Source of the DNA: an uncultured Bryobacteraceae bacterium
GTDB lineage: Bacteria; Acidobacteriota; Terriglobia; Bryobacterales; Bryobacteraceae
Reading direction: 5' to 3'
Assembly: GCA_938027685.1 (NCBI GenBank)
Contig: CALJAM010000008.1
Location: 1 to 64,000 of the forward strand
DNA length: 64,000 bases
This document shows positions 18,169 to 44,259 of the stretch, in pieces. Positions within the stretch are counted from its first letter, which is position 1, and every line of letters starts with the position of its first letter. Under the pieces are notes generated by a model. The model was not told the origin of the DNA and searched no databases. It saw only the letters and a list, made by a program, of their open reading frames with translations. A program made the translations under genes and the position numbers.

Positions 18169-18173
18169 GCAAA

Positions 18174-19450
<1,277 letters not shown>

Positions 19451-23754: not shown

Positions 23755-23759
23755 TGCGG

Positions 23760-24950
23760 TCACCTCTCGACACGTTGCAATTGCACGGCGGTCAACTGCG
23801 GGGCAACCCGCTGCAACCATGCGGGATCCTCCACCCGGGCCTTGTAGTGCCGATCGTCAGCCGGCTTGCACAGTGCGTCCAGCAACCAGTGGACCTGCTC
23901 CCAGACACTCTGTAGTGGCGCGCCTTGAGGCGCGAAGTCGGAAGGCGGCGAACAGGGCACATGGAAGATGACGCCAACCAATTTTCCAGGATGTCCCGGC
24001 GCCGGCCGCACCTTGAAGCGGAGGCTATTGGGCAGGCGGAACTGCTTGCCCCACTTTTGACAAACGTGGTTGGTGACAGGATACGCCAGCCAGTGACGCT
24101 TTTCGGGTGCCTGATGAGGCGCGGGCGTCGAGAAGGGAAACTGAGTGCGAACGGCCATCCGGATCAAGGCGAGCGTACGCATGACCTGCTTCCAGTCCGT
24201 GGAGGGTTGAGCAGTCTGCCAGACCAGCGGTCCCTTCTGGTCGGCCCCGACAGCGTGGGGCCAGTCGCAAGTCAGCGCCTGTTTCCAATCCCGGACGGGA
24301 ATCTCGAACTTTTGGGGCCAATCGCCGGTCTTCCGGTCGAGAACGAACGATCCCCAACCATTCCGGCTCCGGCCGCCGACGGAGCCGTACAGGTGCATGA
24401 GGAAGAGAGCGTACTGGACGAGCTCCGACTGGTCCTCGGGCATGGCGACGTCGAACCGGGCCTCTTCCCCGGCGTCGATTGCCGGTGCCCGCTGGAGCTT
24501 CGTAACCCACTGTTGCCCTTTTTTCTCGATCCCCAACGGCCCGTAGCCCAAGTACAGATGGGGCCCGATGGAGGAATCGACGTTACGAATGCTGACTTCA
24601 GGATGCTTGATGCTCGACGCCTCGCGATTGGTCCAGTCGCGCAATCTGCCCTCGCGCCACCCGTCGAGCCTCAACCGCACCTTGCTTCGCTCGGCCGCCA
24701 GTTTTTCCTTGCCGTTTTCGCGCCTGGTCAACCAGGCATTGCCGAACAAACGGCCTTCCATTTCGCGCATCTCGCGCACGTCGAAATCGAAGTCTTTCGC
24801 GGCCGCATACGCCACGCGCCACCACTGGCGCAGCAAAGCCTTGAAAGGCGGCGTCCGCCAGCGTCCTTTTTGCTCGGCGTCGCCGAGGAATGCCGGCGTC
24901 AGGAACCGGACTATGAATTGATGGCTTTTGTACGAAAACCCTCGGTTCAT
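23760..24950 (-). CDS. cmr1: Type III-B CRISPR RAMP protein Cmr1
   Basis: The 396-residue first gene of the operon encodes the Cas7-like cap subunit that contacts the crRNA 3' end. The N-terminus has FIVRFLTPAFLGDAEQKG and TPPFKALLRQWWRV, the classic Cmr1 signature in which the RAMP loop reads FKALLR-WWR. Further in, YLGYGPLG and SRNGWGSFVL are present. It diverges from a TonB receptor gene across a 310-base control region. The whole operon is tightly spaced, with gaps of -4 to 12 bases. Confidence 0.95.
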   Translation of the reverse strand: MNRGFSYKSHQFIVRFLTPAFLGDAEQKGRWRTPPFKALLRQWWRVAYAAAKDFDFDVREMREMEGRLFGNAWLTRRENGKEKLAAERSKVRLRLDGWREGRLRDWTNREASSIKHPEVSIRNVDSSIGPHLYLGYGPLGIEKKGQQWVTKLQRAPAIDAGEEARFDVAMPEDQSELVQYALFLMHLYGSVGGRSRNGWGSFVLDRKTGDWPQKFEIPVRDWKQALTCDWPHAVGADQKGPLVWQTAQPSTDWKQVMRTLALIRMAVRTQFPFSTPAPHQAPEKRHWLAYPVTNHVCQKWGKQFRLPNSLRFKVRPAPGHPGKLVGVIFHVPCSPPSDFAPQGAPLQSVWEQVHWLLDALCKPADDRHYKARVEDPAWLQRVAPQLTAVQLQRVER

Positions 24951-29431: not shown

Positions 29432-31432
29432 TCAAGCGTAACAGCGGATTTCGAACACGCGGGCCAGGGGGTCGCCGTTGGTGGCGAGGACGCGCAGACG
29501 TACGGCCTCGAGCTCAACGGGTTCGAACTGGTGGCGTCGTAACCGATAGAAGTTGCCACGGACGGCGGCCAGCTCGCGCCAAGCGCCGCCGGGAATTCTC
29601 CCCTCCAGGAGGTAGTCCCGCACGGTCTCCGGCTGCGGCCCCCGAATGATGTTGCGATTGACGGAGGCCTGCGCGGAGAGCGTCAGCATGCGCTGGAAGC
29701 CGGTGTCGAAGGTGATCTGCACTTCGCGGACGCGCTGCGGGCGCTCGAAGTCCAGCTCGATCCAAGCCTCGTTGCCTTCCACCGGCGCGGCCCAGTGATG
29801 CACCTCCACCTTGCCCTCCCCCAGTGGGTAATCCCGCGTGTGCCCGTCGATGACGTTAACGGCGCGGGCCTCGCCCGCTTGGGCCGAGGCAGTAAGCCGC
29901 GCCCGGCGCGCCAGGTCGTCCGGATCTTCGTTCACGACGCCGCGAATGGTCTGGTCGTCGCGCAACAACACCTGCTGGAGCCTGCGCAGAGCGGCCTTGT
30001 CCTGATAAAGCTGCCGAGGCGTCAGATTGCGCTCCAGGCAGAGGGCCGCCGCGGTGCCGACAGCTTGCCCCACCACGGCGCAGGTAGCCATGACGCGCGT
30101 CGAGCTGAAAGCGACGTGCGAGCAACTGATGTTGCGACCCGCCATGAACAGGTTCGCCACGTTGCGGCTGTAAAGCGAGCGGAGCGGGATGTTGTAGACG
30201 GAGGGCGTGGCGACGGCCACGTTGGGCGCAAGATCGGATCGGTCGAATCCTTGCGGAGGGTGATCGTCCATGGGCCAGCCGCCGATGGCGACGGCATCAT
30301 CGAATCGGCCGCCGTTCATCAGGTCGTGCTGCGTGAGGATGTAATCACCCACTACTCGGCGGCTGCCGCGTTTGCCCGGGATCATGCCGATCCACTCCAG
30401 CGCCCAGGCCGCGCTGGAGGGATGGTCGCCGGAGTTCTTGATGTAGTCCCATACGCCCAGGGCAATCGAGAGCAGTTCGAAGCGGATGCGCTCGTGGTCG
30501 CGAATGATGTCCCGGTCGCCGCCCCAGGCGATCCACCAGTAACCGTATTCCCAGGAAGTGATGCGGCGCATGCGCAGGTGCTCGCGGGTGATCTTGCGGG
30601 CCCAAGCCGGGGGCGTGAACGGCATGGGGCGGTCATAGTGACGCGCGGTGAACAGCACGCTGGAGCCTAAGGTGAGCGAGTCCGGCGCTTCGTACGCCAG
30701 CGATTCGCCGAATTCGCTCCGACTCTCGCGCCCGACGCGCATTTCAGCGCCCGCCTCGAGCGCGAGGCGACTGTCGCCGGTCGCGTCGCAGAAGAATTTG
30801 GCGCGGATGCGGTAGATCTGCTCGCTGCGATCGCAGCGGGCCATTACCAGCTGGATGCGGTCCCCCTGCCTGCTCGCCGCGAAAACCGTGGTATCGAGCA
30901 GCAACGTGATATTGGGCTCGCTGATCACCTTGTCGTAGAGCAGCAGATCCCAGAGCTCCCAACTGCGCTGCGGATTGCCCACGGCGTCGGCCAACCGCAG
31001 TTCTTCGAGAATACCGCCTTCGCGCCAACCGGGGTGCCGGGAGTTGGCGCCCATGACATGCATGCGGACCTCGGAGGAGGAATTGCCTCCCAGCCGTGAA
31101 CGGTCCTGCACGAGCACCACGCGCGCGCCGTGCCTTGCCGCGGCGATGGCCGCGCAAACGCCGGCCAGCCCACCCCCTGCGACCAGAAAGTCCGTCTCCA
31201 GCTCGACCAGGCGCATGTTCGGCTCGCCCGTTGGACGGGCGCCGGAGTCGCGTCGGGGCGACAGGGCGTCCAGGCGCGCGCGAATGTCTTCGACGGAAGC
31301 AGGCTGATAGGGCGCAGGCGGCAGCCGGTCCGCCAGTACGATGATCGAGTAGCCCGTGAACGGCAGCGCACTTAGAAAGGTCCTGCGGTTCATGGCGTTC
31401 TGATTTGGCGCGTTCGATGCGTCATGCGACAT
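29432..31432 (-). CDS. Exported FAD-dependent oxidoreductase with C-terminal discoidin-like domain
   Basis: The 666-residue protein starts at ATG 31432, with GGGAGG 8 bases upstream. NRRTFLSALPF (about 15-25) resembles a Tat signal. A Rossmann fold for FAD begins at DFLVAGGGLAGVCAAIAA (GxGxxG about 86-91), and DRSRLGGNSS follows. The next part up to about 540 is typical of the FAD-dependent-oxidoreductase family found beside sugar catabolism genes. The last 110 residues (WIELDFERPQRVREVQITF) look like an F5/8-type carbohydrate-binding sandwich. The reaction is unknown. It is last in the minus-strand set, 146 bases after the dehydratase gene. Confidence 0.75.
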   Translation of the reverse strand: MSHDASNAPNQNAMNRRTFLSALPFTGYSIIVLADRLPPAPYQPASVEDIRARLDALSPRRDSGARPTGEPNMRLVELETDFLVAGGGLAGVCAAIAAARHGARVVLVQDRSRLGGNSSSEVRMHVMGANSRHPGWREGGILEELRLADAVGNPQRSWELWDLLLYDKVISEPNITLLLDTTVFAASRQGDRIQLVMARCDRSEQIYRIRAKFFCDATGDSRLALEAGAEMRVGRESRSEFGESLAYEAPDSLTLGSSVLFTARHYDRPMPFTPPAWARKITREHLRMRRITSWEYGYWWIAWGGDRDIIRDHERIRFELLSIALGVWDYIKNSGDHPSSAAWALEWIGMIPGKRGSRRVVGDYILTQHDLMNGGRFDDAVAIGGWPMDDHPPQGFDRSDLAPNVAVATPSVYNIPLRSLYSRNVANLFMAGRNISCSHVAFSSTRVMATCAVVGQAVGTAAALCLERNLTPRQLYQDKAALRRLQQVLLRDDQTIRGVVNEDPDDLARRARLTASAQAGEARAVNVIDGHTRDYPLGEGKVEVHHWAAPVEGNEAWIELDFERPQRVREVQITFDTGFQRMLTLSAQASVNRNIIRGPQPETVRDYLLEGRIPGGAWRELAAVRGNFYRLRRHQFEPVELEAVRLRVLATNGDPLARVFEIRCYA

Positions 31433-31578
31433 CTGCACACCCTCCCGGATTTGTATCGTTCCGAGTTCTTGCGAGCCCTTGCTGCAGCGAACGTGTTTGC
31501 GGCCGACCCGCTGTGCAGGAGCCGCACACGGCGCAGGCCGGTGCGTTTCCGCCGTGCTGCCTTGCGGCCTGCGGTCCT

Positions 31579-32787
31579 TCAAGCCGGCCATGCATCGCGC
31601 AGCAGCTCATCCAGTTTCACCTCCGCGCCCAGACCCGGGGCTTGCGGCACGGCGTAGCCGGCATTTTCGAACGCAAGAGGCGTCACGAGGTACGCGTTAG
31701 CGATCTCCAGGACGTGCGGGTTGTATTCGCACATCTCGCATTCGGTGACGGCGGCCGCGAAGTGCACGGCGGCCGCGATCTGAGGCCCGAGAGCGATGCT
31801 GACGTGGGGGACGATCGCCGCCCCGAGCCGGGCCGCGGCGCGGGCGATGCGCAAGGCTCCGGTGAGCCCGCAACGCCCGAGGTCCGGTTGGAAAACGCTC
31901 GCCAGACGCTCGCGCAGGAAAGCGTCGAGCTCGAACAGCGTTCGGTAGCTCTCGCCGACGGCCACGCGGAGATGAAACTCGGCCGCAAGCCGGCGGTAGG
32001 CATCGAGCTCATCGGGCGGGAACGGGCATTCCAGCCAAGCCGGCCTCCGGCCTTCCAGCTCGCGCAAGAAAGGCTCGTCCGCGGGCAGATCCAGACGCCA
32101 AAGGGCGTCCACGGCCAAGGCCGCGCGGCCGGCGACTCTCACGGCTAGCGTGTCGAGCCACGCCAGGAAGTCCTCGCGGCCCCGGTCGAAAAAGACCTTG
32201 ATCAGGGGAAAACCCGTGCGGCCGGCTTCATCGGCTGCGGCCAGCTTCGCGGCGGCATCGGCGCCGGCAAGACCGCTCAGATAGGCGGCAACGCGCGTGC
32301 GCGCCTGCGGTCCGGCAAGCATCCGGGCCACCGGCGTTCGCCGGAGCTTGCCCGCGAGATCCCACAAGGCGAGATCCACCCCGCTGATGGCGTCGAGCAT
32401 AAAGCCAGATGTCTGCCCCCGCACGCGCATGGTGCGGTACATCCGCCACCAGAGCTCCTCCACGGCCTCCGGGCCGCCATCGAAACGCTCCGCCTCGAGG
32501 ACGGGGGCGAGCAGGTCCTCGATGATAGTCGCCGCCACACGCGGCGCCACGGGGGCTTGCGCCTCACCCCAGCCGACCGTGCCGTCGTCCAGCTGCACGC
32601 GCACCAGCACGGTCTCGAAGTTTTCCGAGTACAGAGCCGGGTAGACTGCGGACCAGCGGTAGGCTCCCGCCTTGCGGCCGAGCGCGGTGGGAGATCCCGC
32701 GGTGCCCTTGGCACCCGCGAAATCGCGGGGCAGGCGGAGCGGAAAGGCTTCCACGCTGCGGATCACCGGCGGCGAGGAAAGCGGCAT
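31579..32787 (-). CDS. Mandelate racemase/muconate lactonizing enzyme family dehydratase
   Basis: This 402-residue enolase-superfamily enzyme starts at ATG 32787, 4 bases after the SDR stop. An N-terminal capping domain (about 1-130) precedes the barrel. Lys197 (LIKVFF) acts as base. Asp227 (VDALWRL), Glu253 (WLECPFPPDE) and Glu279 (VAVGESYR) are at the positions of the three metal ligands. IVPHVSIALG offers a C-terminal His. Such enzymes dehydrate sugar acids to 2-keto-3-deoxy acids or, in some branches, cyclo-isomerise them. The adjacent SDR and DHDPS-like aldolase support a sugar-acid route. Confidence 0.85.
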   Translation of the reverse strand: MPLSSPPVIRSVEAFPLRLPRDFAGAKGTAGSPTALGRKAGAYRWSAVYPALYSENFETVLVRVQLDDGTVGWGEAQAPVAPRVAATIIEDLLAPVLEAERFDGGPEAVEELWWRMYRTMRVRGQTSGFMLDAISGVDLALWDLAGKLRRTPVARMLAGPQARTRVAAYLSGLAGADAAAKLAAADEAGRTGFPLIKVFFDRGREDFLAWLDTLAVRVAGRAALAVDALWRLDLPADEPFLRELEGRRPAWLECPFPPDELDAYRRLAAEFHLRVAVGESYRTLFELDAFLRERLASVFQPDLGRCGLTGALRIARAAARLGAAIVPHVSIALGPQIAAAVHFAAAVTECEMCEYNPHVLEIANAYLVTPLAFENAGYAVPQAPGLGAEVKLDELLRDAWPA

Positions 32788-32791
32788 TTCG

Positions 32792-33568
32792 TCATTCCTG
32801 CCAGCGCCGCGCCAGCAGCGCGCCGCCATCGATCACGTAGGTGCCACCGGTGATCCAGGAGGCCTCATCAGAGGCCAGGAAGAGGACCAGCCGCGCGACG
32901 TCGTCCGGCGTCCCGAGCCGGCCCAAAGGATGCCGCCGGCGATTGAGTTCGCGCGCTCGCACGGGGTCTGGATGCCGATCGAAGGAAGCTTGCAGCATGG
33001 GCGTGTCCACGGAGGCAGGGCAGACGCAGTTGACGCGGACGCCATCCTCGGCCAACTCGAGCGCCGCCGTGCGCGCGAGCGTGATCAGCGCACCCTTGGA
33101 AACCGCGTACGCCGACATGCCGGGCGCACCTACGATGCCGGTGATCGAGGCGATCAGCACGACCGAGCCGTGGCGTCTTTGCCTCATCGCGGGGACGAAG
33201 GTCTGCATCAACAGGTACGCCCCGAAAACATTGACGCGTTGGATGCGCTCGAATTCTGCGTAAGGAGTCGAGAGCGTGTCCAGGAAAGCGGTGACCGCCG
33301 CCGAATGCACGAGCACCGAGGGATCGCCCAACTCACGCCGCACGTTTTCGGCCGCGGCGTTTACGCTTTCAGCGTGACTGACGTCGCCGCAGTGCCACAC
33401 GAGACCGTCCTCTTCAGGGCCCCTTTTCACGTCGAGGGCGGCGACGCGGGCGCCTTCTGTGACAAGTGCGCGAGCCACGGCCAGGCCGATGCCGGAGGCC
33501 GCCCCGCTCACCACGGCGACCCGGCCCTGAAAGCGCTGCGCCGGGCGTGTGCGGACGATCTCTTGCAC
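32792..33568 (-). CDS. Short-chain dehydrogenase/reductase
   Basis: The 258-residue classical SDR has the NAD(P) motif GAASGIG at residues 22-28. Asp46 (AALDVK) suggests NAD preference. The catalytic triad is Ser141 (LIASITG), Tyr154 and Lys158 (SAYAVSKGA). The C-terminus ITGGTYVIDGG is typical. In this gene set it probably oxidises a free sugar to the lactone or acid, as do L-fucose, galactose or rhamnose dehydrogenases. It starts 4 bases after the GntR stop. Confidence 0.88.
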   Translation of the reverse strand: MQEIVRTRPAQRFQGRVAVVSGAASGIGLAVARALVTEGARVAALDVKRGPEEDGLVWHCGDVSHAESVNAAAENVRRELGDPSVLVHSAAVTAFLDTLSTPYAEFERIQRVNVFGAYLLMQTFVPAMRQRRHGSVVLIASITGIVGAPGMSAYAVSKGALITLARTAALELAEDGVRVNCVCPASVDTPMLQASFDRHPDPVRARELNRRRHPLGRLGTPDDVARLVLFLASDEASWITGGTYVIDGGALLARRWQE

Positions 33569-33572
33569 GGCG

Positions 33573-34274
33573 TCACCCCGAGGGCCCGTTCGCGCCCGCT
33601 CGAGCCTGCCGGCTCTCGATGGCCGTCAGCAGGGAGTCGCGCGCGCGGGAGATGTGCCGGCGCAGCGCCTCGATCAACCGGGGAAGGTCGCGGGCCTCCA
33701 GCGCGGAGAGGATCGCACGGTGCTCCCGCGCCTCCTGAGCCAGGCGGACCGGCCATTGCTCATCCGCCGCGTGTATGCGCGCAATCTGAATGTGCGCGTG
33801 AAGGCTTTCATAGAGTTCACGCAGCCGCCGGTTGCCGCCGGCCTCGATCAGCAAGAGATGGAATTCGGAGTTGCAACTTTCGTGCTCCCGTTGATCCGCT
33901 CGGCTGCGCACGGGTCGCGCCATTCTTTTCAGCAACTCCCTCATGCGGCGCAATTGCTCCCGTGTGATGCGATCGACGGCGAGCTCGGCCGCAAGACATT
34001 CCAGGGCGCACCGCACGTCGAAGGTCTCCCGGACGTCGGAGGGCGAGACGCCGGCCACAAAAGTCCCGCTGCGCGGGCGGACCTCGACCAGGCCCTCGGC
34101 AGCCAGCAGGTGCACGGCCTGGCGGACCGGAGTCAAACTGACGTCGAGTTTTGCAGCCAGATCGGCCGCATCCAGTCGCTCGCCCGGCCGTAAAACCGCG
34201 TTCAGTATGGCGTCCTTCAACGCGTGATACACGGCATCCACCGTCCGTTCACGTTTCAGGCGAGTCAGCGCCAT
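33573..34274 (-). CDS. GntR-family transcriptional regulator (FCD domain)
   Basis: The 233-residue protein starts at ATG 34274, with AGAGGAAC upstream. An N-terminal winged helix (about 10-75, LAAKLDVSLTPVRQAVHLL and RSGTFVAG) is followed by an all-helical FadR-C domain (about 80-215) that usually binds a sugar acid or other carboxylate. Its position inside the gene set suggests that it controls it, responding to a pathway intermediate. No clear GntR operator was found upstream of the first gene. Confidence 0.88.
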   Translation of the reverse strand: MALTRLKRERTVDAVYHALKDAILNAVLRPGERLDAADLAAKLDVSLTPVRQAVHLLAAEGLVEVRPRSGTFVAGVSPSDVRETFDVRCALECLAAELAVDRITREQLRRMRELLKRMARPVRSRADQREHESCNSEFHLLLIEAGGNRRLRELYESLHAHIQIARIHAADEQWPVRLAQEAREHRAILSALEARDLPRLIEALRRHISRARDSLLTAIESRQARAGANGPSG

Positions 34275-34297
34275 CGTCGGTTCCTCTTCTAGCGGCG

Positions 34298-35449
34298 TCA
34301 AGGCGCCAGTATCGCCTTCAGCATATCAGCGCCGACACAGCCTTCGAGCCGTTTCATTCGCACCTCGCCGCGTGACTCGGTAAAGCTGAATCGCCCTAAG
34401 TTATTCCAGCCCGCCGGCCCGGAGGAAAAATCCAGGCGGCTGCGGTGGACCCTTCCCGACGCTTCGACCTCCACTTCCGCCGCACCGCCTTCCATCGGCT
34501 GGTAATTCTTATAAATCGAGAGTTCGTAAGAGCCCGGCCCGGGCAGCGATAACCGCCATCGGGCGACGGCGCCCTCCGCGCAGGATCTGCGCCAGCCGGC
34601 GTCCGAGTAACCCCCGCGATGCACTGCCATCCAGACGCCAGACTGCGAGTACTCGGGATCGGCGTCGTCCACGTAGAGATCGCGCTGGTACACGGCTGCG
34701 TGTTCGACCAGCATTTCACCCGGCAAACGGGAATCGTCTACCGGGCCAGCCAGGCGGGTGTGGGCGATGGCGGTCAGCCACAATTGTATCCGGTCATGTT
34801 CGCCTTCGCTCGGCGGATACGGGAGCACGCAACGCAGATCGCCGTCGATATAGAAGCGGACCTCCGATTCCGTCCACTCGAATCCGTAGTTGTGAAAGTC
34901 GGCTGTCGCGTCGAAACCGAGCGGCCCGCGGTAGACGCCGGGCGTGCACGTCGAGCTGCGATTCCAGCCCGGTCCGCGCCAACGGATCAGACCCATGTGG
35001 CCTTTAGTCGGCAGATCGGAGTCGAACTCGATCGCGTCAATTTCCGTGCGAATGGCGGGGGCGTAGGTTGTCTCGGCGGCGCCATACATGGCCCAGACCG
35101 ACTGGTGCCACCCGGCTCCTGCATGCATTCTTACGCGCGCTTCGAAGTAACCGTAGCGGAAACCGGCACGGCTGATCACGCCCCCGCCGGTATAATTCTT
35201 GCCGCGGTGCTGTTCGCGGCGCAGCGCGATGACGAGCCGGCCGTCGCGCAGGAAGACATTCTCCGGGCGTTGCGAGCTGTCGGCCTTTACGTCGGTGCGG
35301 TACATCCAGCGCGTCTCGTCCAGACGTTCTGCCGTAAATTCGTCGACGAAAACCGGGCGGTAGCCGGGGGGCGGATACGAAGGCTCGAGCGCAGCGATCG
35401 CCGCGCTGAAGATGCAGGCAGCAATCGGCGGAAGGATCCTAGAGACCAT
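34298..35449 (-). CDS. Secreted GH16-family hydrolase with C-terminal sandwich domain
   Basis: The 383-residue protein starts at ATG 35449, overlapping the aldolase stop by about 11 bases. It has a signal peptide (about 1-20). The GH16 catalytic signature EIDAIE lies at residues 136-141, with nucleophile Glu136, Asp138 and acid/base Glu141. Flanking blocks GYFEARVRMHAGAGWHQSVW and FHNYGFEWTESEVRFYIDG are typical of GH16. Residues about 265-383 form a separate beta-sandwich like golvesin/xanthan-lyase C-terminal domains. GH16 members cleave beta-1,3/1,4-glucans, agarose, carrageenan or porphyran. A galactan target would fit the sugar-acid genes but is not proven. Confidence 0.88.
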   Translation of the reverse strand: MVSRILPPIAACIFSAAIAALEPSYPPPGYRPVFVDEFTAERLDETRWMYRTDVKADSSQRPENVFLRDGRLVIALRREQHRGKNYTGGGVISRAGFRYGYFEARVRMHAGAGWHQSVWAMYGAAETTYAPAIRTEIDAIEFDSDLPTKGHMGLIRWRGPGWNRSSTCTPGVYRGPLGFDATADFHNYGFEWTESEVRFYIDGDLRCVLPYPPSEGEHDRIQLWLTAIAHTRLAGPVDDSRLPGEMLVEHAAVYQRDLYVDDADPEYSQSGVWMAVHRGGYSDAGWRRSCAEGAVARWRLSLPGPGSYELSIYKNYQPMEGGAAEVEVEASGRVHRSRLDFSSGPAGWNNLGRFSFTESRGEVRMKRLEGCVGADMLKAILAP

Positions 35450-36374
35450 GACGCAACGGCGCCACCTCGGAAGCGGGCGCCGCCTCCCATGCAGTCTCCA
35501 CCCAACGGCGAAGCCTTTCGAGCTCGCGCAGCCCCTCGGCATCGAGCTCCGCGGTGGGAGGCCGCACGCAGGGCGAGCGGATGATGCCGCGGGCGGCAAG
35601 ATTATGCTTGGCTGCGGAAACGCCGAGAGCGGGCTGAAGCTCGTAGCGGATTAACGGCAGGATGTGCACGAAGAGGCGCCAGGCCGCCTCGCGCCGGCCC
35701 TCTTCCAGCCACCGCCAGATGCGAACAAAGTGCGGAATCATGTCGGAACTCGGCATCACGCCGCAGGCGCCGCGTTCGAACTCCTCGACGAGAAACTGGC
35801 CGTTGAGCCCGCCGAGAAGCCGCGCCCCCGGCGCCCGGGTTGCAATGGCGGAGATTTTCGGGGCCGTGGGCGGCGCTTCGATCTTGGCGTAACGGACGCC
35901 TTCGATCTCGCGCAGCAGACGCGCAATCAGGTCCGGCGACATCGAGACCTGGGTCACGAGCGGCGCATCCTGCACCAGTACGGGGATGCGCACAGCCTTG
36001 CCGACGGCCTCGTAAAAACGAAAGATGCCGTCCTCGCCCGTGCGCAGCAGGTACGGGGGCAAGACCATGAGGGCATCTGCGCCGAGGTCCTGGGCCTCCC
36101 GGCAACTTTCCGCCGCGGCGTGCAGTCCGGTGTGCCCGGCCGCGACAACCAGAGTCACGCCATCGCCGACCTCGCGGCGGATCAGCTTCAGCAGCGTTCG
36201 GCGCTCCTGCTCGTTCAAGGTATAGCCTTCGCCGGCCATGCCGAACAGCGCCAGCCCGTCGGCGCCCGCCTCCAGCAAGTGGCGGACGAGCGAGAGCTGA
36301 CTGTGCAAGTCGAGGCTCCCGTCCTCGTGAAACGTCGTGCAAACGACCGGGATTACGCCTCTCAGTGTTTTCAT
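35439..36374 (-). CDS. DHDPS/N-acetylneuraminate lyase family aldolase
   Basis: This 311-residue class I aldolase starts at ATG 36374, with GAGGG upstream. Lys164 (RYAKIEAP) is the Schiff-base lysine and Tyr108 (LPPYLL) the conserved tyrosine. GMAGEGYTL (45-53) is the carboxylate-binding loop. It is unlikely to be lysine-pathway DapA: its partners are an SDR, a sugar-acid dehydratase and a GntR regulator, so cleavage of a 2-keto-3-deoxy sugar acid to pyruvate is the likely role. Confidence 0.85.
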   Translation of the reverse strand: MKTLRGVIPVVCTTFHEDGSLDLHSQLSLVRHLLEAGADGLALFGMAGEGYTLNEQERRTLLKLIRREVGDGVTLVVAAGHTGLHAAAESCREAQDLGADALMVLPPYLLRTGEDGIFRFYEAVGKAVRIPVLVQDAPLVTQVSMSPDLIARLLREIEGVRYAKIEAPPTAPKISAIATRAPGARLLGGLNGQFLVEEFERGACGVMPSSDMIPHFVRIWRWLEEGRREAAWRLFVHILPLIRYELQPALGVSAAKHNLAARGIIRSPCVRPPTAELDAEGLRELERLRRWVETAWEAAPASEVAPLRHGL

Positions 36375-36415
36375 GCGTCCCTCGATCTTACCGGCGGCCG
36401 CCGATCTTTTGGGGA

Positions 36416-36439
36416 GGCGGGACCGCTGCGCCGCCCGCC
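36416..36439 (-). promoter_or_regulatory. Intercistronic hairpin between TonB receptor and aldolase genes
   Basis: GGCGGG/CCCGCC arms lie inside larger imperfect arms GCGGCCG (36394-36400) and CGGCCGC (36447-36453), filling the 80-base gap. On the minus strand the inner stem is followed by CTCCCCAAAA, not a T-tract. It may lower downstream expression or protect the receptor mRNA. Confidence 0.35.
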
Positions 36440-36454
36440 CGCAGATCGGCCGCT

Positions 36455-39400
36455 TCAAAACTGCAATTTGAACCCGAACTGGATGATCCTGGCATCGCGC
36501 GCGGACGTAATGGTTCCGAAGCTCGCGCTGGCGTTCCTGCCGTCCGGACCCGGGCTGAACCCGGCTGCGGGCCGACCGAGGTTGACGTGATTGGTGAAGT
36601 TGAACGCTTCCGCGCGGAATTGCAGGTTCACTCTCTCCTTCACCCCAGTGTTCTTGATCATGGAGACGTCCCAGTTCAGCGTCGCGGGATTGCGAACGTC
36701 GGGGAGCGTGCGGCCCACCTGCCCCATGGTGAAGGGAGGCGGGTTGTAGAACACGTCGGTGTTGAACCAGCGCTTGGTTGAACGCCGGCTACGCGGGAGC
36801 TTGGCCGAAGCGGTGGCATTGGGCCGATTCGCCTGATAATTGCTCGCCCCACTGACGATCACCGGAGTTCCGGTCTGCATGACGCCGATGGCGTTGACCT
36901 GCCAGCCCGCTACGATCCGCTGCCATAGCCGGTTGGAGGGAGACAGCCGCTTGCCGGGACCGAAGGGTAGCTCGTAGATGAGGCTCACGACCGCGCGCTG
37001 GGAAACATCCAGCGGGTCGATGGCCCGCGCCAGGCGACGATTGTACAAACCATCCTGAAAACCTATATCGTTCTGCTCGAGGTTCCAGTTGACCGGAGTG
37101 TTCAGGCTGTCGCTGATGGTCTTGCCCGCCGTGTAAGCCAGACTCGCGAAGAATCCTTGGGCGAAGCTGCGACGGACGTTGATCTGGAGCTGGTGAGCGA
37201 TGAAATTGCCCATTTGCGGGTTGTAAATACTCACGGCGTTGTAATACGGGAAAGCCATGAGCAGACGCTCGCGGGTCAGCGTGCGGCCTCCCAGGCCGCC
37301 GGGGATGATTCCGGCCCACGGGTTGGGCAACGGATCGAACAGGCTCAGCCCGAGTTGCGCGCGGATCTTCGGGTCGACCTGGTTCAGGTTGTAACCGGCC
37401 GAGATGAAGCGATTGCCCTTGTTGCCGGCGTAGGTCACGTCGAAGAGCCAGCGGCCGAACTGTTGCTGGAGGCCGGCGTTCCACTGCTGGTTGAGGGGCG
37501 TGCGTCCGTCGTCCTCGGTCCAGGAAGCCGACTGGCCGAGCAGAGCACTAGGCCCGGCTGCGGCCCCCGGTGCTTCCATGGGCGGATAGGGGAATCCGGC
37601 CGCGAACTTGAAGGCGGGGCGACCAGGTTCACTGGTAACGTAACTGGTCGTGGTCGAGGAGAACAGTTGCGTGTTGCCGAAGAAATCCCGGTAAAAGATG
37701 GCCGGGTAATAGATACCGTAACCGCCTCGGAACACGGTCCGCCCGTTGCCGAAAAGATCCAGGGCGAAGCCGAAGCGCGGACCGAAGTCTCGGTAGTCCT
37801 CCTTGCGGAAGGAGCGCGGCTGACCGTCGCGTCCCGCGTATACGGTAACGCCGGGCATGCCGGTGCGCGGCTCGCGGGCCACAGGATCGAAGCTGATATG
37901 GCCGTCGTGGCGCTCGACCGGCTTCTTCTGGAAGTCATAGCGCAGTCCAAGATTGAGGGTCACCCGGCGTCTTATCTTCCAATCGTCCTGCAAGAACCAG
38001 CTCAGCGAATGGCCTACGAAGGTATTGCCTGTGATGCGGTCGCAAGAGGCGCCGGTCACGTCGCCGAGCAAGAACTGAGCAAGATCGGAGCCCGTGCCCG
38101 CAGGCCGCTGCGGATTGGTAGTGAGACCCGAAAAGGAGAAGTTGCCTGAAAGGGCCGAACCTTGTTTGTTGCTGCCTTGCAGCAGGCGTAGGTTGACGCC
38201 GAACTTCATGGTGTGGCTGCCGGTGACCTTGGTCACCATATCCTGAATGTCCCAGTTCAGCGACGCGCGCGTGCCGTAAGCCTGACCGCCGATGGTCCCG
38301 AAACCGAAGTTGATCTGCGGGAACTGCTCGGGCGGGACCACGGGCGGAAGACCGAGTTTACGCGGCCAGTCGCGGCCGCCGTTGACGGCGCGGAAGGTGA
38401 AAAACTGACGTGAGATTCCAACGCGCAGATTGTTGATCAATGTGGGCGAGAACGTGTGCGTGTCTGCAAGCATGGCGTTGCGGTTGGTCTGGTTGTCGCG
38501 GCGGTCCTGGCCTACGGTGGGATCGGTGAAGAAGTTGGTGCCGGCGTTGGGCGGAGGCGAGAAGGTGTCGTGTTCGGCTTCGCTGTAGCGCAAAAACATC
38601 GAGTTACGGTCGCCGAAGCGGTGGTCGAGGCGCAGGTGCATCTGCGTCCAGTCGGTTTTCTGGAGCCCCACGTTCTGGAAGTTCTGCGCCTGGGTGTAAG
38701 GATTGATGGGGGGCTTGTTCGGCTCGGGCCAGAAGGCCAGGATCTTGGGAGTGATGGGATCGAAGCGCGTGCGCGGAACCTGGTTGCCGGGGAAGAGGTC
38801 GCGAATCTGTCCGGCGCCGGCCGGGTTGGGTCGTGTGGTCTGGGGATCGTAAACGGGGATCAGGACCCCCGAGGCGGTATACCAGTTACTGAAATCGCCC
38901 TGGCGCCAGGATGCAATGGGTACGGTGGCGATGTTAGGCCAGCTCCGACGAAGCAGGTACTGCTCCCAGTTAAAGAAGCCGAAGGTGCGATTCCGGATGA
39001 AGGGCCCGCCCAGTGAAGTTCCGTACTGGTTATAGCGCAAGGGGAGCTTGCTGAGGGCGTAGGTATTGCGGGCGTCGAATTTGTCGTTGCGCACGAACCA
39101 GTAGGCGGTGCCGTGCAGTTCGTTGGTGCCGGATTTGGTCACGAGGTTGATCGCGCCCCCGGCGGTGAATCCGTACTCGGCCGACATCGTGCCGCTCTGC
39201 ACCTTGAACTCCTCGACCGCGTCGACCGCCAGCGGGACGGCGACTTCTCCGATGTAACTCAAAGTATTGTTGTTGCCGTCCAGCATTTGCGCGTTCATCG
39301 AGTTGGGGCCGCCGTTGATCGAAATCGAGGAAAGGCCGATCCCGCGGTCCCCGAAACCGGATTGCAGCGGGCCGGAGTTGGCGACGACGCCCGCGGTCAG

Positions 39401-39892
39401 AAGGGTCAGAGCCAGAGCACTGCGCCCGTTGAGCGGCAGTTCCTGAACGCGACGGTTCTCGATGACCTGGCCCAGGGTGGCGCTGCCGGTGTCGACCAGG
39501 GGCGTCTCGGCCACCACCTCTACGGTCTCGGCGAGTTGCCCGATTTCCAGTTGCAGATTGATCTCGGCGCTCTGGTTGACCTGCAAACGAACGCCGCTGC
39601 GGACGGTTTTCTTGAAGCCCTGCATCTCCGCGCTGACGGTGTAAGAGCCTACGGGCAGGCCGGGCGCCGAATAGTAGCCGGTCTCGGTGGTCTGGGTTCG
39701 AAAGACCGCGCCGGTCTGAACGTTGACGATCTCGATGCGGGCGCCGGAAACCACCGCGCCTTGAGGGTCGGTCACGACGCCGAAAATGGAGCCCGTTCCC
39801 TGTTGCGCGAGCCCGGGCTGCGAAAGGACCGCCGCGGCGGCCAGCGCCGTCAGGCGAGCGATCAGGTTGAAGGGACGGGTATGGGGTTGCAT
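36455..39892 (-). CDS. TonB-dependent receptor with carboxypeptidase-regulatory N-domain (Oar-like)
   Basis: The 1145-residue protein starts at ATG 39892, with GGGAGGAGG upstream. It has a signal peptide (about 1-29, ending GLAQQ), a regulatory Ig-like domain (GVVTDPQGAVVSGARIEI, about 38-110), a plug (QMLDGNNNTLSY) and a barrel closing with FGFKLQF. It leads the catabolic gene set (80 bases before the aldolase gene), so it likely imports the oligosaccharides released by the GH16 enzyme. It shares a control region with the divergent gene at 40035. Confidence 0.88.
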   Translation of the reverse strand: MQPHTRPFNLIARLTALAAAAVLSQPGLAQQGTGSIFGVVTDPQGAVVSGARIEIVNVQTGAVFRTQTTETGYYSAPGLPVGSYTVSAEMQGFKKTVRSGVRLQVNQSAEINLQLEIGQLAETVEVVAETPLVDTGSATLGQVIENRRVQELPLNGRSALALTLLTAGVVANSGPLQSGFGDRGIGLSSISINGGPNSMNAQMLDGNNNTLSYIGEVAVPLAVDAVEEFKVQSGTMSAEYGFTAGGAINLVTKSGTNELHGTAYWFVRNDKFDARNTYALSKLPLRYNQYGTSLGGPFIRNRTFGFFNWEQYLLRRSWPNIATVPIASWRQGDFSNWYTASGVLIPVYDPQTTRPNPAGAGQIRDLFPGNQVPRTRFDPITPKILAFWPEPNKPPINPYTQAQNFQNVGLQKTDWTQMHLRLDHRFGDRNSMFLRYSEAEHDTFSPPPNAGTNFFTDPTVGQDRRDNQTNRNAMLADTHTFSPTLINNLRVGISRQFFTFRAVNGGRDWPRKLGLPPVVPPEQFPQINFGFGTIGGQAYGTRASLNWDIQDMVTKVTGSHTMKFGVNLRLLQGSNKQGSALSGNFSFSGLTTNPQRPAGTGSDLAQFLLGDVTGASCDRITGNTFVGHSLSWFLQDDWKIRRRVTLNLGLRYDFQKKPVERHDGHISFDPVAREPRTGMPGVTVYAGRDGQPRSFRKEDYRDFGPRFGFALDLFGNGRTVFRGGYGIYYPAIFYRDFFGNTQLFSSTTTSYVTSEPGRPAFKFAAGFPYPPMEAPGAAAGPSALLGQSASWTEDDGRTPLNQQWNAGLQQQFGRWLFDVTYAGNKGNRFISAGYNLNQVDPKIRAQLGLSLFDPLPNPWAGIIPGGLGGRTLTRERLLMAFPYYNAVSIYNPQMGNFIAHQLQINVRRSFAQGFFASLAYTAGKTISDSLNTPVNWNLEQNDIGFQDGLYNRRLARAIDPLDVSQRAVVSLIYELPFGPGKRLSPSNRLWQRIVAGWQVNAIGVMQTGTPVIVSGASNYQANRPNATASAKLPRSRRSTKRWFNTDVFYNPPPFTMGQVGRTLPDVRNPATLNWDVSMIKNTGVKERVNLQFRAEAFNFTNHVNLGRPAAGFSPGPDGRNASASFGTITSARDARIIQFGFKLQF

Positions 39893-39976
39893 CAAGTCCT
39901 CCTCCCTTGGCTGCGATTTCTCATCGCGGCGATGTCCGCATGATGCCACACGCCGGCCGCCATGTCAAGGGGCCGA

Positions 39977-40001
39977 AATCTGAAATTTCTGATTTCAGAT
40001 T
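39977..40001. promoter_or_regulatory. Perfect 10-bp palindrome, probable operator
   Basis: AATCTGAAAT, a 5-base spacer TTCTG, and ATTTCAGATT form a perfect inverted repeat. It is AT-rich within a GC-rich genome and lies between two divergent genes. Its right arm touches the -35 box of the promoter for the 944-residue protein, the classic place for a repressor site. The binding protein is unknown. Confidence 0.6.
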
Positions 40002-40034: not shown

Positions 40035-42869
40035 ATGCCGTATTGTCGGCTCGCACTCTGGGCGGCCCTGGCTTGCGTCGGGCCGGCCGCCGAGAAGGTC
40101 CACGAGTTGGCCAACGCGCGCTACCGCCTCACCGCCGGTCCGGTCCTGCGCATTGCGCGGATCGATCAGGGAGGGGCGATGCGGGAGCTCGTCCCGCAAC
40201 TGGAAGTGTTCTTCACGGACTCCGACCCCGGCTACAACATGCTCAATCGGCTACGCGAAGAGGTCACCGCAACCGCGGCCTGGAAGCTTGCGGGAAAGGG
40301 GGAACCGGAGGCGGACCTCTACCGGGCGGCCAAGCCGTTCGTGCTGCGCGCCTCCTCCTGGGCCGCTGAGGGCATGCGGGCCGTCCGTTATCGCTTCCCT
40401 CCTCAGCCGGAGTTCGAGGTTTCGCTGCTGGTCGAGCTGGCGGAGGGCACGCAAGCCCCGATCTTTCAGCTGGAGCTGACGCCGCATCGCACGGGCTGGT
40501 TCTCCGTCGGCCTGGCCATGCTCGGAGCCGAGGAGGCTGCGGATCAGGAGTTCCTCTTCCAGCCCTTGGTCTGGCAGTGGAAGCGCTTCCCGGCCCGTTC
40601 CTATCTCACGCCCGAGCATTTCGCGAACACCCCCGCCGTCTTTCGGACGCGCGAAGGGGTCACCGAAGGGCTCGCGGCCGATCCGGGCGAAATTCCTTAC
40701 CGTTTCGCCACCGCTGAGAATTCGCGCTTCGGGCTGGTGTTACGGGAGGGCAGCGGACGCTGTCGTCCCAGCCTGTTCGCGCCCATTCTCGGCGGCGCAG
40801 AATCCTTCCGCAAGGCAGGCGAGGCCTACCGTTTTCGGGCCCGGTATGTGCTGAGCGCGGGCGGCTGGTATGCCGGGGTCAGCCACCTCCTGCGCGACAT
40901 TCTGGGCTACCGCAACGAGCGCCGCAACGCGACTCATTCGCTGAATGAGACTCTGGAGAACATGATCGCTCTGGGTATGGACGATGTCTACTCCGGCTGG
41001 ATCGAGGAGTTGCGCGGCTTCGACTATCGCTTCGACGTACCCGGCACCGTGAAGGTCGTCTCGGCGCTTCACCCTCTGGGCATCGCACTGATCACCGGCG
41101 ACCGCGAGATCTACCGCCGTCGCGCGCGCCCCCTGATCGAATACGTGCTTTCGCGGGAGAAGTATCTGTATGCCGTGAGCGAGGAAATCACCACGCAGAG
41201 TCCCTCGCACTTCCTTCGCGGTCCTTGCGTGGAGCTGGGCGAGCTTGCGAGCCTGCACCGCATGATGCCCGCCTCGGAGGTGTTCCGGCGCGAAGCCGAG
41301 CGCGTTTTCGGCCGCCCGCGCGCCCTCAACCTGAATACGATGACGGGCGGCGGGTCCTGGCAGGACGAACTGGCGATGTACCGCATCACGGGCGACCCTG
41401 CGCGGCTCGAGCGCGCCCGGCGGGGCGCCGACGAGCACATCCGCAACGAGATCGAACGCCTCCCGCAGGACTTCAATACCAACCCCGCGTTGCGCGATAA
41501 GCAGGCGTGCTTCTACACGGATTACGGTCCGCGCTGGTTCGATCTTTTCGAGCTCTATGAAGAGACGCAGGATCGTAAGTATCTCGAGGCCGCTGCCGTG
41601 GGCGCCCGCGCGCTGCTGCTTTGGCTTCGCTCGCATCCTTTTGCGCCTGCGGAAGCCATTACGGTGAATCGCGGCGGTCGGGTCCCGGGCGTTTTCGCCT
41701 GGCGCCGCGTCAGCCAGAGCGAGCGGGTCCCGTTCGAATCCACGAGTTACGTCCCGGAGCAGCGGATTCCCGCTTGGCGAACGTCCCTGGTCGGCTTACC
41801 GCCCGAGCAGGGCTATACTTACAACAACGGCGGACCTATCATGCTGACCCATCACGCCGCCTGGTTCCTGCGCATCGCTGCGTTAACCGGAGATTCCCTG
41901 CTCGCCGACGCAGCCTATAATGCGATACTCGGGCGGTACGCAAACTTTCCGGGATACTATTTCCGCTCGCTTGAGACTAACGTCTATCAGTTACCGAATT
42001 ATGCCCGCCGTCCCTATGACGAGATCAAGTACAACGCGATTTTTTATAACCATATCTGGCCGCATATTGCGCTGCTGGCGGACTTTCTCGTCAGCGACGC
42101 CTTTTACCGTTCGCGCGGCGAGATCGACTTTCCCTCGGCCTACGCGCCCGGTTACGCCTTCCTGATCAGCAAGGTTTACGGACACGCGCCGGGCCGCATC
42201 TACCGGGACCGCGGCCTCTGGTTATGGTTGCCGCGCGGGGCCGTGCGCTTCTCGACCACGGCGGTCAATCACTTTTTCGCCACGGGCGAGCGCGGCCTGT
42301 ATCTGGTCCTCATGAACACCGAGGATCGGTCAATTCGCACTTCGGTGCAGTTGAACGCAGACGTGATTCCCTATGACGCGGATCGCGACTATCCGGTGAC
42401 GGCGCTGAGTCACGAAGGCGCCACAGCTATCGGGCGGATGCGCGAAGGCTTTTTCGAGGTTACTGTCCCGGCGCAGGGGCTGGCGGCTCTGAGAATCGAG
42501 GACCTGCGCGCCGAAAATCCTTTGGTGCGTGCCCGCCGAGACGTCCGAAGCTCACCCGGCGCCAAAGGCTACCTGCGCCAGAGTTTCTCCGAACCGGCGC
42601 TCGGCACGGTCACCGCCATGCTGCTTAACTTGGTGAGCGATTACGCCGACCTGTATGTTTACACGGACGCCACCGAGAAGCAGGCGGCACGCATGCGCCT
42701 GGTCTGGCGCGCGGACGCGGCGGGGGAGGAGGCGATCGAGGATGCATCCTATCCTTATGAATTCAGTCTCCGGCTGAAGGACCCCTCGGCACCGGTTCGC
42801 TTCCGGCTCGAAGCCCGAGCGCCGGACGGAAGCTGGAAGCGGACGCCCGAGATGGAGCTCAGGAATTGA
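40035..42869 (+). CDS. Large exported enzyme-like protein of unknown family
   Basis: I do not recognise a specific family in this 944-residue protein. The N-terminus (about 1-19) could be a short signal peptide. Residues about 20-260 look like a beta-sandwich. About 290-700 are helix-rich with Trp/Tyr-rich loops (TMTGGGSWQDELAMYRITGD, YTNNGG-type loops and HHAAWFLRIAALTGDSLLADAAYN), as in (alpha/alpha)6-barrel glycosidases and polysaccharide lyases. About 720-944 appear to be further sandwich domains. A role in glycan breakdown is an inference from this layout and from the ExuT-like transporter that follows. It may be controlled by the palindrome at its promoter. Confidence 0.6.
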   Translation: MPYCRLALWAALACVGPAAEKVHELANARYRLTAGPVLRIARIDQGGAMRELVPQLEVFFTDSDPGYNMLNRLREEVTATAAWKLAGKGEPEADLYRAAKPFVLRASSWAAEGMRAVRYRFPPQPEFEVSLLVELAEGTQAPIFQLELTPHRTGWFSVGLAMLGAEEAADQEFLFQPLVWQWKRFPARSYLTPEHFANTPAVFRTREGVTEGLAADPGEIPYRFATAENSRFGLVLREGSGRCRPSLFAPILGGAESFRKAGEAYRFRARYVLSAGGWYAGVSHLLRDILGYRNERRNATHSLNETLENMIALGMDDVYSGWIEELRGFDYRFDVPGTVKVVSALHPLGIALITGDREIYRRRARPLIEYVLSREKYLYAVSEEITTQSPSHFLRGPCVELGELASLHRMMPASEVFRREAERVFGRPRALNLNTMTGGGSWQDELAMYRITGDPARLERARRGADEHIRNEIERLPQDFNTNPALRDKQACFYTDYGPRWFDLFELYEETQDRKYLEAAAVGARALLLWLRSHPFAPAEAITVNRGGRVPGVFAWRRVSQSERVPFESTSYVPEQRIPAWRTSLVGLPPEQGYTYNNGGPIMLTHHAAWFLRIAALTGDSLLADAAYNAILGRYANFPGYYFRSLETNVYQLPNYARRPYDEIKYNAIFYNHIWPHIALLADFLVSDAFYRSRGEIDFPSAYAPGYAFLISKVYGHAPGRIYRDRGLWLWLPRGAVRFSTTAVNHFFATGERGLYLVLMNTEDRSIRTSVQLNADVIPYDADRDYPVTALSHEGATAIGRMREGFFEVTVPAQGLAALRIEDLRAENPLVRARRDVRSSPGAKGYLRQSFSEPALGTVTAMLLNLVSDYADLYVYTDATEKQAARMRLVWRADAAGEEAIEDASYPYEFSLRLKDPSAPVRFRLEARAPDGSWKRTPEMELRN

Positions 42870-43014
42870 CGGACGCGGCCAAGACCGGGATCGCTCGGAA
42901 TCGCCCGCGACCGGGCCCGACTCACTCACGGCGGGTGCGTCGAACCTTCAGCCGGGAGGTCGGTCCTGCGCAGGTTTGCTTCACAGCGCGCAGACGGACG
43001 CACGCCCGAACCGC

Positions 43015-44259
43015 ATGAAACGCCGGATCCCTCACCTGCGCTGGTGGATCACGGGCCTGCTGTTTGCCTCTACGGTGATCAATTACGTGGACCGGCAGAC
43101 CCTGTCCATCCTGGCGCGCACGATCCAGAACGAACTGGCTATGGACGACCTGGATTATGCGCACGTGGTCCAGGCGTTCCTGCTGGCATACACAGTGGCT
43201 TACCTTCTCGCGGGCCGCGTCACGGACTGGCTGGGAACGCGCGCCTCGCTCGCTTTATTTCTCGGATGGTGGTCGCTGGCCAACATGGCGACGGGCCTCG
43301 TGCGCAACGCGTACCAGCTTGGGCTGTGCCGGTTTTTGCTGGGACTGGGAGAGGCGGGCAATTACACGGCGGCGCCCAAAGCGGTCTCGGAGTGGTTTCT
43401 GCCCAAAGATCGTGGGCTCGCCGTGGGCATTTACACCGCCGGAGCCATGGTCGGCGCCACCATTTCTCCGCCCCTGATCAGTTGGCTCGGCGGCACGTGG
43501 GGATGGCGGGCGGCCTTCTTCGCGACGGGCGCCCTGGGCTTGTTGTGGTTGATCCCGTGGTGGTGGCTTTACCGTGAACCGTGGCGGCACCCGCGCATCA
43601 CGGCGGAGGAGGCCGCGCAAACTCCGGCCCGGCCGGCAGCCGCGCAATGCCAAGGCTCGGGCTGGAATCTCTGGAAGGAAGCCTTCTCCAGCCGAGCGGC
43701 ATGGCTGTTGATGTCCGCGCGTCTGCTCACGGACCCGGTCTGGTACTTTTACCTTTTCTGGTTCCCGAAGTATTTAATGGATGCACGCGGGCTGACATTG
43801 TCCGGCGTCGGCAAGGTAGCCTGGGTGGTCTATTTGGCCGCCGACCTGGGTAGCGTGATCGGCGGCGCGTTGTCCGGCCGCCTGATCCGGCGGGGCGACC
43901 GTCCGGTGGCGGCGCGCCTGAAAGTCATGGGCGGGGCGGCGCTCCTGGCGCCGCTGGGGGCCCTGGTGGCTTTGCGGCCGCCGCTGGAAATTGTGCTGCT
44001 GCTCGGCGCGCTGGTCAGCTTTTGCCATCTCACCTGGCAGGTCACCCTCACCGCGCTGGCCGTGGACCTGTTCCCCTCGCGCATCGTCGCGACCGTGTTC
44101 GGGCTGATCGCGGCGGGCAGCGGCTTGGGCGGCCTGCTGTCGACCGACGCCGTCGGCCGGCTGGTCAGTGCTTACTCATACGCGCCCGTGTTCGCCCTGA
44201 TGGCGCTGCTTCATCCCTGCGCGTTTGCGGTGGCGCGCAACGTGAAACGCAACGGCTAA
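43015..44259 (+). CDS. MFS transporter, ExuT/anion:cation symporter-like
   Basis: The 414-residue inner-membrane protein has twelve hydrophobic segments. NYVDRQTLS in the first helix and the loop motif GRVTDWLGTR between helices 2 and 3 are typical of the ACS family that imports hexuronates, galactonate and related sugar acids. FLLGLGEAGNYTAAPKAVSEWF in helix 4 strongly supports ExuT-like function. The ATG at 43015 has no clear Shine-Dalgarno; an in-frame TTG at 42976 would add 13 residues. It follows the 944-residue gene by 145 bases and ends in a hairpin. Confidence 0.82.
   Translation: MKRRIPHLRWWITGLLFASTVINYVDRQTLSILARTIQNELAMDDLDYAHVVQAFLLAYTVAYLLAGRVTDWLGTRASLALFLGWWSLANMATGLVRNAYQLGLCRFLLGLGEAGNYTAAPKAVSEWFLPKDRGLAVGIYTAGAMVGATISPPLISWLGGTWGWRAAFFATGALGLLWLIPWWWLYREPWRHPRITAEEAAQTPARPAAAQCQGSGWNLWKEAFSSRAAWLLMSARLLTDPVWYFYLFWFPKYLMDARGLTLSGVGKVAWVVYLAADLGSVIGGALSGRLIRRGDRPVAARLKVMGGAALLAPLGALVALRPPLEIVLLLGALVSFCHLTWQVTLTALAVDLFPSRIVATVFGLIAAGSGLGGLLSTDAVGRLVSAYSYAPVFALMALLHPCAFAVARNVKRNG

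Follow-up and report, generated by a model that had tools for sequence, protein, structure and literature searches.

A putative GntR-controlled glycan-to-sugar-acid locus in an uncultured Bryobacteraceae bacterium

The gene cluster described here lies on contig CALJAM010000008.1 of an uncultured Bryobacteraceae bacterium (phylum Acidobacteriota, GenBank assembly GCA_938027685.1), the first 64,000 nucleotides (nt) of which constitute the window that was analysed. We lean, with modest confidence, towards a GntR-controlled locus that turns a glycan into sugar acids as the best explanation of this cluster. Seven open reading frames, all on the minus strand within 29432-39892, were confirmed, and Pfam backs each of the names given to them in the original prediction; in the order of transcription they encode a TonB-dependent receptor, a DHDPS-family protein, a GH16 hydrolase, a GntR/FCD regulator, an SDR dehydrogenase, an enolase-family enzyme of the mandelate racemase (MR) subgroup and an FAD oxidoreductase. 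The unit extends beyond this range to include two divergently transcribed partners, HYP944 and an MFS transporter.

According to this explanation, GH16 and HYP944 would cut the glycan and the receptor would import oligosaccharides, while the exported FAD enzyme would probably act outside the cytoplasm, oxidising sugar that is freed or bound to the glycan. An aldonate or its lactone would be made either by the SDR, which possibly oxidises the freed sugar in the cytoplasm, or by the FAD enzyme in the periplasm, and passage of the sugar acid through the inner membrane would be the task of the MFS protein. This acid would then be dehydrated by the enolase-family enzyme to a 2-keto-3-deoxy acid, on which the DHDPS-family enzyme would act. 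GntR, bound to a palindrome within the divergent promoter, would control both operons, with the sugar acid or the keto acid as the probable signal. Gene content, gene order, recurrence, conserved residues and a conserved promoter word are what the sequences display, and it is from these that we infer what the substrates are, which reactions take place and where, that proteins are exported and that GntR binds. The roles originally ascribed to the receptor (outer-membrane uptake), to GH16 with its intact ExDxxE motif (cleavage) and to the MR enzyme with all of its metal and dyad residues (acid dehydration) were upheld as predictions from sequence, and a gene for sugar oxidation, the SDR, is indeed present in the unit.

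Gene order and recurrence

The starts of four genes were moved by homologue comparison (DHDPS 36374, GH16 35449, MR 32787, FAD 31393). With the corrected starts, the intergenic gaps from the receptor to the FAD gene are 80, -11, 23, 4, 4 and 185 nt, the first six genes being tightly packed; the FAD gene, which follows the MR gene after the 185-nt spacing, may have a promoter of its own.

MR orthologues, defined as matches at E 1e-60 or better, are present in 21 of the 60 relatives searched, and partners were counted in loci of 17.5-20 kb around them (DHDPS within about 10 kb; the MFS gene of G002 was counted from locus L087, and the receptor and full FAD gene of G044 from L081). A DHDPS gene accompanies MR in 20 of these 21 loci, an MFS gene in 19, a GntR gene in 16 and a same-family receptor in 13, all of which are lower bounds because contig ends cut some loci. 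The association of most genes is more than chance: GntR-DHDPS-MR-MFS and the receptor make up the catabolic core, and the surrounding partners vary by lineage. As an example of such neighbours, 12 of the 21 relatives match the PSCyt2/PSD1 and DUF1501 proteins of G040 (itself among the 12), 11 of these match its FGE-like protein and 10 strongly match its second enolase-family protein, the first three names having been assigned by Pfam on G040 only. These genes sit together with core genes in L033, L034, L036, L038, L039, L041-L043 and others; PSCyt2/PSD1 and DUF1501 are typical of Planctomycetes.

More distant genomes were also considered. Among 395 further genomes sampled from the phylum, 5 have HYP944 relatives, at six places in all, and three of these places (G437, G185 and G364) hold partners known from the window. 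In G437, which belongs to another class, DHDPS-HYP944-GH88-GntR diverges from receptor-FAD-SDR-MFS-enolase-family gene, and in G185, likewise from another class, GntR-MR-DHDPS diverges from receptor-GH31-unassigned-GH2-SDR-HYP944-GH88-enolase-family-MFS; receptor, SDR, GntR, DHDPS, MFS and HYP944 are thus found together in both, joined by FAD in G437. The same-family receptors of the three loci are 36-47% identical to that of the window, and SDR relatives stand at 53-54% in two of them, while the MFS-adjacent enolase-family genes of G437 and G185 resemble the second enolase-family gene of the relatives (36-38%) more than they do the window MR. G364, from the same class, carries FAD, receptor, GH31, GH16 (35%), HYP944 and MFS (40%) genes, with no GntR, DHDPS or SDR match within the stretch read. 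Among the best 80 MR-relative loci of 531 confirmed candidates in the genome collection, a DHDPS relative is present in 16, mostly adjacent to MR, and the closest named MR locus is from an Acidobacteria bacterium (50% identity); we infer that the unit is acidobacterial. In addition, HYP944 homologues were seen in three Actinobacteria loci among those listed (L093, L095 and L097, with no DHDPS in L095), and in the Flavobacteriaceae locus L104 an FAD gene directly precedes DHDPS and MR in the company of SusD, sulfatase, GH2 and GH43 genes.

The kind of locus is known, whereas the combination is new and several of its activities lack an assignment. According to the accessible part of PMC12445098, E. 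coli-type sugar-acid operons (rhamnonate, xylonate) likewise unite a regulator, a transporter, an acid dehydratase and a DHDPS-type or similar enzyme; in comparison, the window adds the outer-membrane receptor, GH16, HYP944 and the flavoprotein, its regulator is of the GntR/FCD rather than the IclR type, and its DHDPS-type enzyme is devoid of the aldolase Tyr. The Zobellia carrageenan regulon with dauABCD, as far as the sections consulted describe it (PMC5698469), is likewise a glycan locus with an enolase-family enzyme, a transporter and a regulator, but no 2-keto-3-deoxygalactonokinase (DGOK) was found in the window genome, there is no close DauB relative and, among the genes scanned, no SusD, while the FAD enzyme and HYP944 are extra. 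No description of this gene set was met in the literature searched, most matching papers not having been opened.

The divergent promoter and the case against the proposal

The palindrome AATCTGAAATTTCTGATTTCAGATT lies between the receptor and HYP944 genes, and a promoter-like TTGACA site is found immediately downstream of it, at 39968 (such sites being no more numerous than chance allows, with 4 found and 2.5 expected). It occurs once in the window at up to 3 mismatches and not at all in 100 shuffles, and the sister genome carries a similar palindrome at the same place. Its half-site word, TCTGAAAT/ATTTCAGA, stands upstream of core genes in 5 of 27 segments (window, sister, G005, G032 and G006), with 6 copies seen against 0.09 expected, although the word was chosen from the window itself, which is the source of two of the six matches. 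It is also found in the divergent promoter of G437 and in the GntR/receptor promoter of G185, a locus fetched afterwards, so that six loci besides the window carry it at core-gene promoters. Pooled over all 26 loci, the word was seen 14 times against 8.1 expected from a first-order model and is unusual only in its position upstream of core genes; in 23 further loci, copies that do not stand at such promoters were also seen in L177 (two) and L084 (one). The palindrome is probably the GntR operator, and the two operons are probably under shared control. Separate regulation of the genes, which had been named beforehand as an outcome that would undermine a common pathway, is made less likely by the palindrome and by the recurrence of its half-site word at the relatives' core-gene promoters.

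Several observations weigh against the proposed locus. The word is absent from 22 of the 27 upstream segments, including receptor or GntR promoters of L044, L078 and L081, two of its eight intergenic copies stand at other genes (L030, L047), and G364, where no GntR was seen, is without it. GH16, SDR and HYP944 each occur in only one of the 21 MR loci, namely that of the sister, and the FAD gene in only one other (G044), the sister's FAD gene residing on another contig beside a different receptor. Two of the remaining three distant HYP944 places are without any window partner and the third has a weak receptor match only. Furthermore, no lactonase or aldehyde-handling enzyme is encoded among the locus genes, lactonases not having been searched for genome-wide; as the inner-membrane transporter also falls outside the seven genes, their earlier description as a self-contained route does not hold. 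Finally, no result fixes a substrate.

The enolase-family and DHDPS-family enzymes

Members of the MR subgroup of the enolase superfamily carry, at known positions, three metal ligands (Asp, Glu, Glu) and an Asp-His dyad. The corresponding residues D241, E267, E293, D316 and H342 are invariant in 16 of 16 aligned rows (16 of 22 orthologues), which makes the protein a member of this subgroup by sequence criteria. Mandelate racemase proper has a second Lys in a KxK motif, which some sugar-acid dehydratases are also without; all of the 21 close rows read K-x-F or K-x-Y instead, and mandelate racemase proper was ruled out on this ground. In a profile comparison with solved structures, 4h1z (9.5e-87) ranked far ahead of DauB (5olc, 3.9e-44) and 3,6-anhydro-L-galactonate cycloisomerase (5xd7, 9.4e-35), and an identity as 3,6-anhydrogalactonate cycloisomerase (DauB, ACI) was rejected on this ranking. 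The molecule names of the best solved relatives, 4h1z and 2ppg, give no reaction, and both have Ala at the third position of the KxK motif where the window enzyme has Phe. No NCBIfam cut-off for a sugar-acid dehydratase equivalog was reached, the best score being 118 bits for galactonate dehydratase (cut-off 311). We regard the enzyme as a predicted aldonate dehydratase. For the MFS protein, the best NCBIfam model is a D-galactonate transporter (210 bits, below the cut-off of 395).

L-2-keto-3-deoxyarabonate dehydratase differs from the aldolases in a Gln that replaces Tyr and in a Glu two residues past the Lys, as stated in the accessible text of PMC9795676. This dehydratase is the best solved relative of the DHDPS-family protein of the window (profile 4.6e-59, against 3.4e-34 for the YagE aldolase), and equivalents of its Lys171, Gln143 and Glu173 (numbering from the same text) are present as K192, Q163 and E194. 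All 36 of the 36 rows compared retain the Gln that replaces the aldolase Tyr, as well as the Glu of KxE; of these rows, 20 belong to the window and its relatives and 16 to the collection, with the duplicate L081 and the partial copy in L044 omitted. This argues against a type I KDG-type aldolase of the YagE kind, although the Schiff-base Lys is present. The Azospirillum dehydratase (7c0c, 3fkk) shares the Lys, the Gln for Tyr and the KxE Glu with the window protein, in so far as the available sections of PMC9795676 go; in contrast, the window protein keeps a GxxGE-like motif, its partner dehydratase is from the enolase family, and the second catalytic Glu (Glu200) probably aligns with Asn219, next to an alignment gap. 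Together with the semialdehyde result given below, this last position also counts against the chemistry that we prefer.

A second dehydration appears more likely than cleavage to pyruvate, as judged from these residues. An aldonate dehydratase followed by a true 2-keto-3-deoxy-acid aldolase, yielding pyruvate and a small aldehyde, is what the DHDPS family in general would suggest, and the GxxGE-like motif and PPY are retained in most close rows; with the diagnostic Gln and Glu and the profile ranking opposing it, we hold this route to be unlikely. Five aldehyde dehydrogenases are encoded in the genome, none of them in the locus. Four of them were scanned: none scores high enough for an alpha-ketoglutaric semialdehyde model, and the closest model for one is lactaldehyde dehydrogenase, although its cut-off is not attained, both of which are more in keeping with pyruvate formation. 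Two score above the cut-offs of models for other aldehydes. The same scan, the probable Asn at the Glu200 position and the beta-glucanase-like GH16 argue against an oxidative pentose-type route, in which an L-arabinonate-like acid from an arabinose- or galactose-containing glycan would proceed via alpha-ketoglutaric semialdehyde to alpha-ketoglutarate. This route, to which we give a minor chance, would explain the diagnostic Gln and Glu and is in line with single genes scanned in MR-DHDPS loci of other phyla, namely SGL lactonases in L097, L099, L103 and L107, 2-keto-3-deoxygalactonokinases in L092 and L099, and SDR genes nearby in several. As the residues favour a second dehydration and the missing semialdehyde dehydrogenase speaks against it, pyruvate and alpha-ketoglutarate are both candidate end products; the original claim of a route to pyruvate is not supported, the DHDPS-family protein being devoid of the aldolase Tyr, although pyruvate may still be formed. 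Elsewhere in the genome, one KDPG-type aldolase is present and DGOK was not found, other KDG kinases not having been searched for.

Glycan-facing proteins and neighbouring genes

GH16 belongs to its family by Pfam score (57 bits, cut-off 22) and by its ExDxxE motif (EIDAIE). Its solved relatives point to beta-glucanases: the profile retrieved a 'GH16 family protein' (6xof, 5.4e-23), then endo-1,3-beta-glucanases/laminarinases at 1e-17 and below, and more weakly kappa-carrageenase (1.2e-13) and porphyranase (6.9e-13). HYP944 is probably secreted, given its signal-like N-terminus, and may be a glycan hydrolase or lyase. At E 0.001 neither Pfam nor NCBIfam gives a match for it, its homologues have weak similarity to six-hairpin glycosidases, and 6 of 12 family members, the window protein not among them, have weak GH127 similarity at E up to 1 (best 1.3e-6). 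The catalytic residue of GH127 is a Cys, and GH127 membership was rejected because no Cys column of the window protein is conserved in 11 rows, the split sister copy having been dropped. In the sister, HYP944 is divided over two overlapping frames (L028:17261-18796 with L087), a frameshift or an assembly error, and the actinobacterial homologues L093 and L095 end in Golvesin_C, the domain that also ends the window GH16.

The original prediction had been reminded of galactan and 3,6-anhydrogalactose degradation. A galactan, agar or carrageenan route with an anhydrogalactonate cycloisomerase could account for the joint presence of GH16 and an enolase-family gene, for the NCBIfam kappa-carrageenase and beta-glucanase models scoring alike on GH16 (both far under cut-off), and for the weak GH127 similarity, GH127 being at work in the carrageenan system according to the consulted part of PMC5698469. 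With DauB and the L-enzyme ranking low in the MR profile comparison, DGOK not found in the genome, a GH16 profile that prefers beta-glucanases and no conserved Cys in HYP944, we consider this route highly improbable. Rather doubtful, too, is the idea that HYP944 is a uronate lyase acting on an acidic glycan and that the SDR handles the unsaturated uronate product. GH88 genes adjoin HYP944 in 2 of the 6 distant places (the neighbours of the other four being only partly scanned), but the window genes scanned include no GH88, the HYP944 homologues weakly match hydrolase families with no lyase family seen in the match list, and the HYP944 structure model is too poor to use (four sequences, mean pLDDT 41.4, precluding a fold search). 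KduD was rejected as the identity of the SDR, its model ranking outside the 25 best of 230 listed.

The FAD enzyme is only loosely linked to the unit. Its frame opens with a twin-arginine motif, and such a motif was noted by eye near the N-terminus in 11 of 12 FAD proteins compared, the twelfth (L088) having been called with a later start. Relatives occur in 12 of 60 genomes. In G017, G020 and G044 the gene is next to, or one gene away from, a same-family receptor, and the sister's copy adjoins a different receptor; no same-family receptor was labelled in the remaining FAD loci retrieved, some of them short and the G024 copy not among them. In G020, the receptor-FAD pair is directly followed by a sulfatase gene (L079:5486-6847). 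Two genomes, G029 and G516, encode a FAD_oxidored protein that is 36% identical to that of the window over 417 residues, is preceded by some 180 residues without assignment, and runs in-frame into a GH16 fold (L089:8984-11428 and L221:9364-11880), a stop reported for G516 lying where the match ends; no GH16 match was obtained in the loci of four other members of this subfamily. The fused folds have ELGIVE and EVRVAQ in place of EIDAIE, a loss of the catalytic motif that is as expected of a binding module. From these fusions, which belong to another, distant FAD subfamily, FAD_oxidored enzymes probably act on glycans. The suggestion that the FAD enzyme works outside the cytoplasm has gained from its recurrence in such loci and from the fusions; its predicted model (two sequences, mean pLDDT 35.1) is too poor for a fold search.

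FAD_oxidored proteins are found here in glycan loci of two phyla; to our knowledge, no job has been assigned to them there, and a literature search combining an FAD oxidoreductase with such a gene set returned nothing. A bolder and distinctly tentative proposal is an undescribed mode of glycan feeding, in which a Tat-exported FAD_oxidored enzyme, whose relatives can be tethered by a dead GH16 fold, would oxidise the glycan or oligosaccharides in the periplasm, an aldonate-type MFS protein would import the acid, the enolase-family/DHDPS-family pair would catalyse a new reaction, HYP944 would found a new carbohydrate-active enzyme family, and one GntR operator would serve several acidobacterial genera and classes. 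The promoter word, the fusions to decayed GH16 folds and the recurring partners offer testable handles on the role of the FAD enzyme, on the enzyme pair and on HYP944. The features of the unit are compiled in Table 1.

Table 1. Features of the proposed unit, in window positions.
Feature	Position	Strand	Basis or remark
TonB-dependent receptor, CarboxypepD_reg/OMP_b-brl_4 type, 1145 aa	36455..39892	-	Pfam; relatives' loci
DHDPS-family protein, 311 aa, probably a 2-keto-3-deoxy-acid dehydratase rather than an aldolase	35439..36374	-	Pfam, solved relatives, residues
GH16 hydrolase with C-terminal Golvesin_C, 383 aa, signal-peptide-like N-terminus, EIDAIE intact	34298..35449	-	Pfam, profile, motif
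GntR/FCD regulator, 233 aa	33573..34274	-	Pfam; relatives' loci
SDR dehydrogenase, 258 aa	32792..33568	-	Pfam/NCBIfam; distant loci
MR-subgroup enolase-family enzyme, predicted aldonate dehydratase, 402 aa	31579..32787	-	Pfam, active-site residues, profile
FAD oxidoreductase (FAD_oxidored and F5/8-C-like domain), 653 aa, twin-arginine N-terminus, probably exported	29432..31393	-	
HYP944, 944 aa, signal-like N-terminus, no Pfam match	40035..42869	+	Divergent from receptor
MFS transporter	42976..44259	+	Pfam/NCBIfam; relatives' loci
Palindrome AATCTGAAATTTCTGATTTCAGATT between the divergent operons, probable GntR operator	39977..40001	no strand	

A second receptor gene (44392-47721) was left out of the unit because the sister (L087) has no counterpart after MFS. 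No SusD match was obtained among the window genes scanned, which argues against a Bacteroidetes-type polysaccharide utilization locus, of which a SusC/SusD pair is the mark. About 13 kb past the end of the second receptor gene lies a glucuronyl-esterase-like gene (GCE_fung, 60333-61622), which no result ties to the unit. On the other side of the unit, a direct-repeat search of 9000-30000 gave one two-copy family only and no array, and a Cas10/Cmr2 gene is flanked on both sides by RAMP-family genes (16756-24950) in a type III-like arrangement.

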